Assembly (NCBI RefSeq): GCF_900176035.1
Contig: NZ_FWWT01000013.1
Span: forward strand, 1-64,000
Length of the DNA: 64,000 nucleotides
Source: Desulfonispora thiosulfatigenes DSM 11270
GTDB taxonomy: Bacteria; Bacillota; Peptococcia; Peptococcales; Desulfonisporaceae
Direction of reading: 5' to 3'
Shown here: positions 19,091 to 61,678 of the stretch, in pieces
Layout of the letters: each line of letters opens with the position of its first letter
Position numbering within the stretch: the first letter of the stretch is position 1
Position numbers and translations under genes: made by a program
The notes under the pieces: model-generated
Seen by the model: the letters and a program-made list of their open reading frames with translations, nothing else
The model's database searches: none
Told to the model about the DNA's origin: nothing

Positions 19091-19876
19091 TTATATTTTT
19101 ATTATTTTATTTTGTTCATAAATAATTCTTAAACCATCTAAAGTTAATAGTTTATCAACGCTATCAATTACCTTAGACTCACTTGCAATTACAGGCGAAA
19201 TTCCTCCTGTAGCAATTACCTTTACATCCTTACTACCCATTTCTTTTTTCATTCTTGTAACTATGCTTTCAACTATGCCGCAGTAACCATAAACTATCCC
19301 GGCTTGCATCGCAGCAACGGTATTTTTGCCAATGGTTTTCTTGTTTTTAGGTGCTATTAATTCCACTTTAGGTAACTTTGCAGTTCTAGTATATAAAGCT
19401 TCTGCGGATATCTGTACACCTGGAGTAATAGCTCCACCTAAATATTCTCCCTTAGCAGAAATTGCACAAAAAGTAGTAGCCGTCCCAAAGTCTACAATTA
19501 TTAGAGGTCCTCCATATTTATTATAAGCAGCTATGCCATTAACTATACGGTCAGCCCCAACTTCTTTAGGATTTTCATATAAAATTGGCATTCCCGTTTT
19601 TATCCCTGGTCCCACTATCATTGGATTTACATTAAAATACTTAAAGGCCATCTCTTCTAAAGAGGTCATTATTGGCGGCACTACTGAAGATATAATAACA
19701 TCGGTAATACTTCCTACATCTAGTTTATGATAATTAAACAGATTATTGATAATAATTCCATATTCATCAGCAGTTTTAGATTTATCAGTAGCAATTCGCC
19801 AATCAGTTAGTAACTTTTTCCCTTCGAATATTCCCAGAACTATATTAGTATTCCCTACGTCAAATGCTAGTAACAC
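19091..19876 (-). CDS. coaX: Type III pantothenate kinase
   Basis: First step of coenzyme A synthesis: ATP plus pantothenate to 4'-phosphopantothenate. 261 aa from GTG 19876, which is preferred over GTG 19885 because GAGGTG is 6 bp upstream. The ASKHA-fold motifs are present: FDVGNTN (Asp6), [20 protein letters not shown] and GAITPG. CoaX enzymes need a monovalent cation and are not inhibited by CoA. The preceding gene is an ECF S-component, probably for pantothenate uptake. Confidence 0.96.
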
Positions 19877-19900
19877 TATTTTCACCTCATTAATTTAATA

Positions 19901-20428
19901 TTATTTGCGATATTTACTTAAAGCTTTTACCAATATTACAGTTAATACTGATGCAATAATTATTTCAAAAATTGAGTTACTAATAACAATAATATAGGCT
20001 GCTTGAATAGGTAAGTATTTCATTAAAACAGCTAGTCCTAAAAAACCAATAGTGTTAGTTAAAGTTCCGACAATGGCTGCAGAAATAGAAGCTAATGTGA
20101 TGTTTTTGCGAAAGATCCAAAACGCATAATATGATGTAATCCCAATTAATATTCTTGGTAAAATACGTACAATTGGATCTGAGGGAATCGCTCCTGTCGG
20201 CGTCATAAAACTATAAAGACCAAATAAAAATCCTGTAAATGCACCTACTACTGGACCTTCTAAAATAGCTGCTAAAATCACTGGAATGTGTAAGATTGTG
20301 GCTCTACCAACTGGGGATGGAACAGGAATAAACCCAAGACCTGTAGCTCCTAACATCATCGCTATAGCACCTAGTAATCCAGCAACAACCATTTTCCTCG
20401 TACTCAATTTTTTACTTATATTTTCCAT
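19901..20428 (-). CDS. ECF transporter S-component, probably for pantothenate
   Basis: 175-aa membrane protein with six segments, typical of substrate-binding S-components that share a common energy-coupling EcfA/T module. The N-terminal helix carries the AxxxA-like pattern (VVAGLLGAIAMMLGA) used to contact EcfT. Substrate inferred only from position: 24 bp before coaX, which acts on pantothenate. Alternative: another vitamin precursor. Confidence 0.8.
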   Translation of the reverse strand: MENISKKLSTRKMVVAGLLGAIAMMLGATGLGFIPVPSPVGRATILHIPVILAAILEGPVVGAFTGFLFGLYSFMTPTGAIPSDPIVRILPRILIGITSYYAFWIFRKNITLASISAAIVGTLTNTIGFLGLAVLMKYLPIQAAYIIVISNSIFEIIIASVLTVILVKALSKYRK

Positions 20429-20464
20429 TATATATTACCTCCAATTTTTATGATAGAAAAAATA

Positions 20465-20490
20465 AAAGAGCGGTTATAAATCCGCCCTTT
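20465..20490 (-). terminator. Terminator overlapping the end of bioY
   Basis: Stem AAAGAGCGG / CCGCCCTTT with a T-rich tail on the minus strand. The stem includes the last codons and stop of bioY. Confidence 0.75.
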
Positions 20491-21049
20491 TGCTTACATT
20501 TAGTCTAGTTCTTTCATAGATAGTCTTTCCTATTATAGCGGCTAATATAGCCTTTAAAAAATCTAAACCCATAAAGAGACTCATCATTATAAAAATAGCT
20601 TTAAGGGTAATTACCTTGCCTGTAATATAGTTATAAATTAGATACATCCAAGGTAAGCCGATTAAATAAATAACTACCATTGCCAATAAAGACGCTAGTA
20701 AAAATGTCTTTAAACCTGGATTTTCCTTTTTATGAATAATATATCCTGCTACATAAGCTGCGAAAATGAAGGATATTAAAAATCCAAAAGAAGGCTGCAG
20801 GGCATAAACTAATCCTCCATAAGGGGGAGCTGCAAAGATTGGAACTCCGATAAGACCAAGGAGTATATAAACTAAGATACTTAAAGCTCCAAGCCTCGGT
20901 CCTATTATTGCTCCAGCTAACAATGATAATAAAGGCAATAAACTAAAAGGAATTATTTCAGGTGGCCATATTTTAGACACAAAAGCTCCTAAAGTCATTA
21001 AACCCGCAAAAAATGAAACTAAAATCATATCTCTTATCGATAAATTCAC
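20474..21049 (-). CDS. bioY: Biotin ECF transporter S-component BioY
   Basis: 191-aa six-helix biotin-binding protein. Start GTG 21049 has AGGAGGG 6 bp upstream; longer in-frame starts run over the promoter. Typical BioY features are the LGAFVSKIWP N-terminal helix, GARLGALS-like GPRLGALSILVYILLGLIGVPIF and the GG-Q-SFGFL segment (LVYALQPSFGFLI). It works with a shared EcfA/T module. A BirA-like operator overlaps the promoter, so biotin repression is expected. Confidence 0.93.
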   Translation of the reverse strand: MNLSIRDMILVSFFAGLMTLGAFVSKIWPPEIIPFSLLPLLSLLAGAIIGPRLGALSILVYILLGLIGVPIFAAPPYGGLVYALQPSFGFLISFIFAAYVAGYIIHKKENPGLKTFLLASLLAMVVIYLIGLPWMYLIYNYITGKVITLKAIFIMMSLFMGLDFLKAILAAIIGKTIYERTRLNVSKRADL

Positions 21050-21083
21050 ACTTATCCCTCCTACAATTCTCTTATCTATAAGA

Positions 21084-21112
21084 ATTATAAAAGGTACTCT
21101 AGTCATTGTCAA
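21084..21112 (-). promoter_or_regulatory. bioY promoter
   Basis: Perfect TTGACA (21112-21107) and TATAAT (21089-21084) on the minus strand with a 17-bp spacer. Confidence 0.85.
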
Positions 21113-21137
21113 CTAGATTTAACCCTGAGGTTAACAT
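21106..21137 (-). promoter_or_regulatory. Probable BirA operator
   Basis: Inverted arms TTGTCAAC (21106-21113) and GTTAACAT (21130-21137) separated by 16 bases, close to the Firmicutes BirA pattern. The left arm covers the -35 box of bioY. Confidence 0.75.
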
Positions 21138-21162
21138 AGGGCGATATTCAGTTGTCCATAAA

Positions 21163-21196
21163 AAAACCTTCTAGACATAAAGGCCCAGAAGGTTTT
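21163..21196 (-). terminator. Strong terminator between the aminotransferase and bioY
   Basis: Stem AAAACCTTCT / AGAAGGTTTT with T7 on the minus strand. It ends either the aminotransferase transcript or a separate RNA. Confidence 0.85.
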
Positions 21197-21306
21197 AAAA
21201 ACACAATTATTCCACCTCCCGTCTCGGTCCTCTTGGCTCCAAGCGGTATTGAATTAATATAAAATTATAACTTATAATCTTTCTATACAGGGCCTATGGC
21301 TCCCGT
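21197..21306 (-). ncRNA. Possible structured RNA of unknown class
   Basis: GC-rich blocks in an AT-rich genome, between the aminotransferase stop and a strong terminator. Minus-strand hairpins include GGGAGCC-ATA-GGCCC (21306-21292), CTTGGAGCCAAG and CCG-AGA-CGG, and ACGGGAG occurs twice. No coding frame is supported. I could not match it to T-box, SAM, TPP, cobalamin, glycine, SRP RNA or tmRNA signatures; a 6S-like RNA is possible. Confidence 0.4.
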
Positions 21307-21320
21307 TAGAAATAGATTAT

Positions 21321-22565
21321 TTAACCTTCTATTTGGTCTATAGCCTTTTTAATCTTTGTTGCCATACCTTTAATTTTTTCAGCTGGTACGGCACAAATAG
21401 CTATGCGCAAACCTTTTTTAAGAGATACTAAGAAAATGTTATCTTCTCTTAATTTTAATCCTACTTCTTCAGCTTTCGTTGTCGGTATTGTAATAAAGAA
21501 TCCAGAATCATAAGGACACATTTTTAAACCTACTTCTTTAGCTTCATTAATGAAAGTATGTGCTCTATCTTCCATGCTTTCGCGATATTCATTTCTTTCA
21601 GCATTTACCTTTGCCATTAATTCTGGGTTTTTCCATAAATCTATTAATAGTCTCATTCCTGATCTTGTGCAGTTAGACCAAGTACCTCTACTTGAGAATT
21701 GGTTAACATCATAAAACTCTGTAATTACTTGTTCATCAGAGCTAATTCCAAGTAAGCATCCTGTACGATAGCCATACATAGTATAGCCTTTAGACATACT
21801 AAATCCTACTAAAACTAAGAAATTAGCTGGTAAATTAGAAAATTTCTTAAAGAATTTACGACTACCTTCAGGTGCAAAATCCATATAAGCTATATCTACA
21901 AATAAAATTATATTATTTTCTTTTTTATTGCAAAGCTCTGTAAAAGCATCAATTAGAGCTTGCCATTCATCATCTGTTAAACTATAGCCTGTTGGATTAT
22001 GAGCAGGTGTATTAAGGATTAAAAGGACATTTTTTTGTACTTTCGCCAAAGCTTCAACCTTTTCAATACAAGCCTGTAAATTGAATTTTCCTTCTTCATC
22101 AAAAGTCATAAATGTATCAATTTTACGCATCATCTCGCGAGCCATCGTTTTATATGGTCCCCAGAACCAATCTGAAGTTAAGTATGTATCTCCTTCTTCG
22201 GTGTAATTCCAGATAGCATGATGAATTGCACCACTTCCACCTGGAGTTGCTATTCCTTTAACGAATGCATCTGGTTTATTTTCGCCAAATGTTACATCGA
22301 TTACCGCGTTAATATAATCTGGTAATCCTGCTATCGGAGCATAATTTGCTACATCATCAAAAGGCAAGCTATACATTGTTTTTTCTACGGTAGGTAAAGT
22401 AATTAATTTACCAGAAGCATCTAAAAATGCACCTATAGATGCATTAACTATATTTTCTTTGCCTACTATTTCAGCCTTAGCATTAGCGGCACTATTTACA
22501 CCAAATATATTATCTGTCTCGCTTTTATCTTGAGCATGTTTAGCAACTAAAGATATCTTCTCCAT
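21321..22565 (-). CDS. PLP-dependent class I/II aminotransferase
   Basis: 414 aa; ATG 22565 has AAGGAGG 7 bp upstream. Fold-type I features: NTPAHNPTGY (substrate/PLP region), FVDIAYMDF with the Asp that pairs with pyridoxal nitrogen, and SMSKGYTMYGYRTG holding the Schiff-base lysine. The N-terminal part (NIFGVNSAANAK) resembles a clostridial group annotated as aspartate or aromatic aminotransferases. The substrate is not fixed. It forms a single-gene unit. Confidence 0.88.
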   Translation of the reverse strand: MEKISLVAKHAQDKSETDNIFGVNSAANAKAEIVGKENIVNASIGAFLDASGKLITLPTVEKTMYSLPFDDVANYAPIAGLPDYINAVIDVTFGENKPDAFVKGIATPGGSGAIHHAIWNYTEEGDTYLTSDWFWGPYKTMAREMMRKIDTFMTFDEEGKFNLQACIEKVEALAKVQKNVLLILNTPAHNPTGYSLTDDEWQALIDAFTELCNKKENNIILFVDIAYMDFAPEGSRKFFKKFSNLPANFLVLVGFSMSKGYTMYGYRTGCLLGISSDEQVITEFYDVNQFSSRGTWSNCTRSGMRLLIDLWKNPELMAKVNAERNEYRESMEDRAHTFINEAKEVGLKMCPYDSGFFITIPTTKAEEVGLKLREDNIFLVSLKKGLRIAICAVPAEKIKGMATKIKKAIDQIEG

Positions 22566-60856: not shown

Positions 60857-61678
60857 TTATATATTATTGTTATTTTTAATTTTAACTCTTATTATTTTAT
60901 TTATTTCATCCAGTTTATCTAGCTCTAAAAGACCTAAATAATCTTTTACTACCTTTGTTTCAGGTTCTTTAGTGTCAATTAAAACACCGATTGCTAAAAC
61001 TTCCGCCTTGAATTCTTGCATTAAATCAAGTACACCCTTAGCTGTTCCGCCAGCTTTCATAAAATCATCTATGATAATTACCTTTGAACCACTTGGTAAT
61101 GCTTTTCTTGCTAAAGACATACTCCCTATCTTTTTAGATGACCCCGAGACATAATTTATACTAACTGCTGATCCTTCTGTAACTCTCCCGTCGTTTCTAA
61201 TTATTACTAGGGGTACATTAAAAGCCTTTGCTGTCATTAAAGCTAAAGGGATACCTTTAGTTTCGACGGTAACAATATAATCTGGTTTTTGCTCACTAAA
61301 TTTATGAGCAAAAATATGTCCTAATTTATTTAAAATACTTGGATCATAAATTAAATCAGTCATATAAATATACCCACCAGGCAATATGCGATTCGGATCA
61401 GATAATTTTTCAGAAAGACTTTGTAAAATATCTTGTTCTTCTTTTGTACTAACAAAAGGTAAATATTGCACGCCACCTGCTGCCCCCGATACAGTTTCTA
61501 ACCTACCTTGACCTATATCCTGTAAAGTATTTTTAATAATAGTTAAATCTTCACTAATACTTGATTTTGCCGCTTGAAACATTTGTGCAAAATATCCTAA
61601 GGTAAATAATTTATGTGGACTTTCTAGAAGTATCTTAGTCATTACTACAATTCGTTCACTTCTTCTCCATTTTTCCAT
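60857..61678 (-). CDS. purR: Purine operon repressor PurR
   Basis: 273 aa: winged-helix N-terminus (KWRRSERIVVMTKILLESP, SSISEDLTIIK) and a type-I PRTase-like domain with the PRPP motif VIIIDDFMKAGGTAKG. In Bacillus it represses purine genes and is released by PRPP. ATG 61678 matches the homologous start; GTG 61684 is an alternative. Bacillus yabJ, between purR and spoVG, is missing. Confidence 0.96.
   Translation of the reverse strand: MEKWRRSERIVVMTKILLESPHKLFTLGYFAQMFQAAKSSISEDLTIIKNTLQDIGQGRLETVSGAAGGVQYLPFVSTKEEQDILQSLSEKLSDPNRILPGGYIYMTDLIYDPSILNKLGHIFAHKFSEQKPDYIVTVETKGIPLALMTAKAFNVPLVIIRNDGRVTEGSAVSINYVSGSSKKIGSMSLARKALPSGSKVIIIDDFMKAGGTAKGVLDLMQEFKAEVLAIGVLIDTKEPETKVVKDYLGLLELDKLDEINKIIRVKIKNNNNI

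Follow-up and report, generated by a model that had tools for sequence, protein, structure and literature searches.

The minus strand of the window (a 64,000-nucleotide stretch of Desulfonispora thiosulfatigenes DSM 11270 DNA, analysed in full) carries a complete tandem pan RNA upstream of genes for a BioY-family protein, a PanT-like ECF S component and the pantothenate kinase CoaX. We put at roughly 80% the probability that this RNA is a leader that serves as a transcription attenuator for the acquisition of pantothenate (vitamin B5). The reading draws directly on family membership, tandem geometry, covariation, the complementarity between the RNA tail and a terminator, and gene context. The identification itself is ordinary and its context informative: a new pan RNA, located in a salvage operon, that most likely acts as a B5/CoA-responsive attenuator.

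The pan motif was previously described upstream of panB, panC and aspartate decarboxylase operons (Weinberg et al. 2010, PMC2864571), and a position ahead of panB-panC-panD is also reported in PMC5670726, the one other paper in the literature searched that carries the Rfam number. The window copy resembles the published motif in its two-bulged-A stem, its tandem arrangement and its location ahead of pantothenate/CoA-pathway genes, but differs in the bioY/PanT-like/coaX operon downstream and in a tail that would double as an antiterminator strand (PMC2864571). Relative to the literature searched, the pan family is already known; what is new is its occurrence ahead of transport and kinase genes, its association with PanC-less genomes and the proposed mechanism of tail and terminator.

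Identity and fold of the element

An Rfam 15 scan of the full window yielded a single match, to the pan motif (RF01749) on the minus strand, with a score of 39.3 bits that exceeds the gathering cut-off of the covariance model (36.2 bits; E = 0.0028). The sequence-only reading from which this work started had proposed a candidate new RNA and had suggested Infernal against Rfam as a check; the check returned a curated family, which rules out a new one. Matches to the L10 leader, caiA, bxd_4, the L20 leader and MicX (E = 0.07–0.8) fall under their own cut-offs and were taken as chance.

The Rfam alignment spans 21285–21215 (minus strand), where P2 is aligned and P1 is skipped. A geometry scan (3 bp, bulged A, 5 bp, bulged A, 3 bp) supplies the other member of the tandem. 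Both hairpins carry the two conserved bulged A nucleotides, P1 with no mismatches and P2 with one G·A pair that recurs in many relatives. A P1-type hairpin appears in only 8 of 1,000 shuffles of the 171-nt region. The third trait associated with RF01749, a place ahead of panB, panC or panD, is absent from the window copy, whose genes are bioY, PanT-like and coaX. We retain the family assignment because gene context is an association made by the discoverers and lies outside the covariance model.

Table 1. Features of the pan RNA locus and the genes it precedes
Feature	Position	Strand	Details
P1, pan hairpin 1	21283..21309	-	3 bp, 3′-side bulged A, 5 bp, 5′-side bulged A, 3 bp, 3-nt loop
Inter-hairpin linker	21247..21282	-	A+T-rich; 8.3% G+C
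P2, pan hairpin 2	21219..21246	-	P1 geometry, one G·A within inner stem; RF01749 match; covariation in 50 relatives
Putative antiterminator strand CGGGAGGU	21214..21221	-	P2 outer-stem 3′ side and conserved tail; 8-bp pairing with 21193-21186
Intrinsic terminator	21163..21196	-	14-bp hairpin, -17.7 kcal/mol; 5′ arm 21193-21186 is partner of antiterminator strand
BirA-operator-like dyad GTTAACC..GTTGAC	21108..21135	-	overlaps -35 of bioY promoter
bioY promoter TTGACA-17-TATAAT, sigma-70-like	21084..21112	-	12/12 consensus matches
BioY-family ECF S component (biotin or PanU-like pantothenate)	20474..21049	-	PF02632 E 1.3e-33; 4dve_A E 1.6e-7
Terminator-like hairpin between bioY and PanT-like gene	20464..20491	-	strong
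ECF S component, PanT-like	19901..20428	-	PF12822; phmmer best PDB chain 4rfs_S
Type III pantothenate kinase CoaX	19091..19885	-	PF03309 E 7.3e-82; NF009847 above cut-off

The minus-strand segment 21312–21163 (150 nt) folds with an energy of -49.2 kcal/mol, compared with -32.7 ± 3.6 kcal/mol for 200 dinucleotide shuffles (z = -4.6), none of which folds equally well. This agrees with the initial description of an RNA that has several hairpins and a terminator. The repeated ACGGGAG noted there was likewise found on the minus strand at 21306 and 21222, one copy lying in the P1 5′ strand and the other in the P2 3′ strand plus tail; elsewhere in the 64 kb it occurs only at 61191 (minus) and 34225 (plus). 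The same description held the whole region to be a GC-rich block, which is accurate for the two hairpins (55.6 and 67.9% G+C) but not for the linker or for the stretch as a whole (38.9%, in a window of 31.7%). Its range of 21163–21306 takes in the terminator but stops three bases short of the first hairpin.

A discrete, strong fold might also belong to an independent small RNA, 6S-like or other, an option that had been left open from sequence. No 6S covariance-model match is present in the full window, nor at E values up to 1 in 20300–22000. The solitary pan match, together with the consistent place of such RNAs ahead of metabolically matched genes, makes an independent small RNA scarcely credible.

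Covariance in related genomes had been named as a further check, and it bears out the pan structure. RF01749 matches occur in 33 of 60 relatives and in 120 of 299 genomes of the phylum (overlapping sets). By count there are 147 distinct matches, and 138 sites in 127 genomes were analysed; the nine left aside (in G289, G226, G240, G304, G098, G073, G314, G080 and G147) are mostly among the weakest. In an alignment of 50 P2 sequences, pairing holds in 94% of cells, both sides vary in 8 of 11 pairs and the bulge columns A15 and A31 are invariant. The covariation score is 0.381, against 0.209 for shuffled alignments, and neither any of 500 shuffles nor any slid register reaches the native value. 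Upstream of P2, the P1 geometry is found without mismatch at 61 of 138 sites and with at most one mismatch at 103 (shuffle means 0.5 and 8.6, respectively); selection by geometry biases pair counts on P1 towards that geometry, for which the shuffles are the control. When only the 11 pairs are demanded, 66 hairpins qualify, and 62 of them have A at both bulges. The window P2 is itself part of the R1 model, so the score of that model at the window follows by construction.

We also approached the association from the transporter side. A same-strand pan hairpin lies upstream in 22 of 80 named ECF-S loci at E < 0.001, and the other 58 have none at that threshold. This check is only partly independent because several of the 22 contigs, judged by their length, overlap with the pan search and because pan-linked genes supplied the seed alignment.

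Predicted pairing between the P2 tail and the terminator

Transcription-terminating leader RNAs and riboswitches of Bacillota form mutually exclusive antiterminator and terminator structures. The window pan RNA has this exclusivity in common with the terminating leaders of Bacillota, but differs in that it would be recognized through two small bulged hairpins. CGGGAGGU pairs at 8 of 8 positions with ACCUUCUG, so that a terminator and a mutually exclusive alternative pairing are both found computationally. Before the 3′ arm of the terminator exists, the predicted energies are -33.3 kcal/mol for the antiterminator and -32.7 kcal/mol for full P2. In these calculations the gap of 0.6 kcal/mol between the two states is as expected of a poised switch.

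This arrangement recurs across the sites analysed. A terminator of -8 kcal/mol or better lies no more than 120 nt away at 114 of 138 sites, compared with 8 in shuffled sequence (one mononucleotide shuffle per site); by this criterion 24 sites have none. We examined the pairing at 94 of the 138 sites, those with a terminator of at most -8 kcal/mol and an arm free of overlap with the tail. The mean duplex between tail and terminator 5′ arm was -9.38 kcal/mol natively, -7.94 kcal/mol when arms were swapped and -3.6 for a linker control, and none of 2,000 swaps was as good as the native set. With one site per family (47 families), none of 500 swaps was as good in each of 20 draws; in an earlier, smaller test of 37 sites, 2 of 500 swaps were as good as the native set. 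A duplex of -6 or better forms at 83 of the 94 sites, and at 69 of these it takes bases of the P2 outer stem, so those duplexes exclude a closed P2. This complementarity supports a model of attenuation in which the tail would act as the antiterminator strand.

In the model that we favour, the 3′ tail of P2 in the nascent leader has two possible partners, the outer stem of P2, which it would close, and the terminator 5′ arm. At low B5/CoA supply, tail and arm would form the antiterminator, and bioY, the gene for the PanT-like S component and coaX would be transcribed. At high supply, a regulator that recognizes the two bulged-A hairpins would lock P2 and free the terminator arm, and transcription would stop. 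We infer this direction, with termination as the high-supply state, from gene content. The regulator would most likely be a dimeric protein; the metabolite itself is a less likely candidate. The leader would presumably be expressed in this organism, and the mechanism can be tested by point mutations.

Attenuation is not universal among pan RNAs, given the 24 sites without a terminator and a tail that resembles a ribosome-binding site in Halanaerobium-type loci. In the five such loci shown, the tail GGGAGG runs directly into the S-component gene, and the same pan RNA seems usable there for translation control. These loci (L208, L214, L217, L224 and L248) come from Halanaerobium and a Halanaerobiales MAG. 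In the region just past the pan tail, inspection by eye found no in-frame ATG, GTG or TTG between GGGAGG and the conserved ECF S N-terminus; an ATA or ATT stands 8 nt past GGAGG in all five, which suggests a non-canonical start codon.

Genes behind pan RNAs

The 138 sites comprise 109 in which biosynthesis genes come first, 28 led by a transporter or kinase gene and 1 that is unclear; in 28 of the 109, the first six frames include BioY, ECF-S or CoaX as well. The transporter- or kinase-led sites consist of 15 with an S component first, 4 with the order (amidohydrolase-)birA-ECF-S-coaX, 5 with PanS-panC, 2 with an OPT-type transporter and type II pantothenate kinase, 1 with DUF997-PanF and 1 with a dipeptide-type ABC transporter. 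The PanS and PanF matches fall below the NCBIfam equivalog cut-off, and the PanF frame is a fragment that ends at the contig end as fetched. Counting in the candidate dipeptide-type ABC operon, 137 of 138 sites stand ahead of B5/CoA-related genes. The known pan regulon is in this way extended from biosynthesis to import and phosphorylation.

PanC was searched for in 44 distinct genomes of the 127. In all 16 pan-bearing genomes without a PanC match (G003, G007, G008, G009, G011, G016, G020, G021, G027, G075, G082, G114, G119, G247, G287 and G319, of which G009, G016 and G020 are less than 90% complete), the RNA leads import or kinase genes. Relatives of the PanT-like gene of the window stand behind pan RNAs in PanC-less genomes. 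Because S components have a common fold, we relied on a profile search against the PDB, in which this gene (19901–20428) matches 4rfs_S (E = 3.1e-12) and 6zg3_C (E = 1.9e-6), followed by RibU (0.016); 4RFS and 6ZG3 are both PanT (PMC7755397), so its closest solved relatives are PanT. It has no match to the NCBIfam PanT model, with sub-threshold hits only, the best of them to a folate S-component subfamily. By homology it would be PanT-like, nearest to PanT.

The BioY-family gene of the window starts with GTG at 21049, preceded by GGAGG, and its product could be a carrier of biotin or pantothenate. Bacillus subtilis PanU (YhfU), which is related to biotin S components, is required for the uptake of pantothenate and is repressed by BirA (PMC11487621, the text of which lacks the terms ‘riboswitch’ and ‘RNA motif’). 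In genome G000, contig C13:119982-120317 holds two adjacent pieces that resemble a second BioY (31 and 27 bits) and may represent an S component that is broken or has diverged.

Another pan RNA in the source genome stands before panB-panC-panD, which here follow a DUF2520-type gene whose product we take to be PanG/E-like. Relatives of the class often have a single joined operon, pan-panG/E-B-C-D-bioY(-ECF-S)-coaX, and the window operon resembles the salvage part of such an operon after a split, with a pan copy of its own retained.

The sequence-only reading observed that the element lies after an aminotransferase gene and that bioY has its own promoter; both observations are correct, but the conclusion that this is no obvious riboswitch fails because relatives also have pan RNAs that lead bioY/ECF-S/coaX operons. 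The promoter of bioY is no objection, since all five pan-bioY leaders of the order carry a BirA-like promoter site past the pan terminator. Nor is the position behind the aminotransferase gene, since a promoter-like site lies just 5′ of the first hairpin at 52 of the 103 sites with a recognizable P1, compared with 9 in shuffles (a single mononucleotide shuffle per site).

The same reading had raised a 3′-UTR RNA. On that account the element would be only the 3′ UTR and terminator of the aminotransferase gene, and bioY would be unaffected. Indeed, the aminotransferase gene ends at 21321 and P1 begins 12 bases past its stop codon; the promoter upstream of the window pan RNA is weak (7/12 consensus), which may indicate co-transcription from the aminotransferase gene; and an aminotransferase gene also occurs in the fetched loci of three other genomes (G006, G009 and G013). 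However, the downstream B5/CoA-related genes at nearly every site argue against it, and a plain terminator has no need of a conserved bulged-A tandem. We regard a mere 3′ UTR as improbable.

Among the 138 pan leaders, five, each of them ahead of bioY in a member of this order, contain the dyad GTTAACC-N-GTTGAC, which we liken to a BirA operator as a predicted site. A biotin-ligase gene (TIGR00121) is present in the source genome. The bioY promoter with its BirA-like operator probably gives the operon two inputs, B5/CoA and biotin. That biotin is the signal for the RNA as well, with RNA and BirA-like site both serving BioY, would fit the BioY-family gene in first position, the operator and the presence of birA near coaX in four pan operons. 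Against this, one family of loci (f2; G004, G007, G008, G016 and G020) has pan before an ECF-S gene without bioY, the BioY match in four of those genomes sits on another contig, and pantothenate biosynthesis genes follow 109 sites. A biotin signal is consequently very improbable, and B5/CoA remains the signal that we prefer for the RNA.

The terminator-like hairpin at 20491–20464 makes uncertain whether pan-controlled transcription reaches coaX. It also leaves the promoter of the PanT-like gene and coaX unexplained.

Regulator and candidate carriers

A more far-reaching reading is that the pan RNA is itself a riboswitch, the long-missing sensor of CoA or its precursors, whose tandem hairpins directly bind pantothenate, a phosphorylated derivative or other CoA intermediate, or CoA. 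As a widespread class, it would control every route to CoA, from synthesis and several unrelated transporter types to type II and type III kinases; most lineages would use attenuation, and relatives of Halanaerobium would mask the ribosome-binding site. The contexts range from biosynthesis to both kinase types and at least four unrelated families of transporter, a breadth that points to B5/CoA status as the signal rather than the substrate of one protein, and CoaX seems dispensable. A riboswitch review calls the lack of a known CoA-binding riboswitch puzzling (PMC9971707). However, a pair of short hairpins whose loops and linkers vary looks unlike most aptamers, and Weinberg et al. (2010, PMC2864571) judged that the dimeric arrangement suggests a motif bound by protein. 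We therefore consider direct ligand binding unlikely, although less so than the alternatives above, and favour a protein regulator. Searches of the open-licence full-text literature returned no effector or mechanism for pan since 2010 and no description of pan ahead of transporters.

CoaX was also considered as a necessary RNA-binding regulator, a proposal weakened by two genomes, G002 and G011 (93% and 96% complete), that have a pan RNA and no CoaX match. G002 (L041) has panG/E-like-B-C-D under its pan RNA and a CoaBC match, and none of the three pantothenate kinase types matched, which leaves missing contigs or an unrecognized kinase. In G011, pan stands before the dipeptide-type ABC transporter operon (L043:1738-6642); PanC and pantothenate kinases of types I, II and III gave no match there, and CoaBC (PF04127) is present. 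This operon possibly serves an unusual B5 or pantetheine route.

Other pan operons bring in further proteins. In G047 the RNA is followed only by a 78-aa protein with two CxxC pairs, with no B5 link seen (L039:4665-5030). An amidohydrolase gene comes first in the order amidohydrolase-birA-ECF-S-coaX in G121 (L137:2984-4366), and the same gene order occurs in G082 (L191:2979-4376), where the frame in the ECF-S position has no blastp match. As a pure guess, the amidohydrolase might free pantothenate from an amide such as pantetheine. Pan RNAs may in this manner point to candidate B5 carriers, namely the PanT-like ECF-S family, the dipeptide-type ABC system and an OPT protein. The last of these, a candidate CoA-precursor carrier, is an OPT-family transporter encoded with a type II pantothenate kinase behind pan at two loci (L129:346-2868 and L149:1901-4403).
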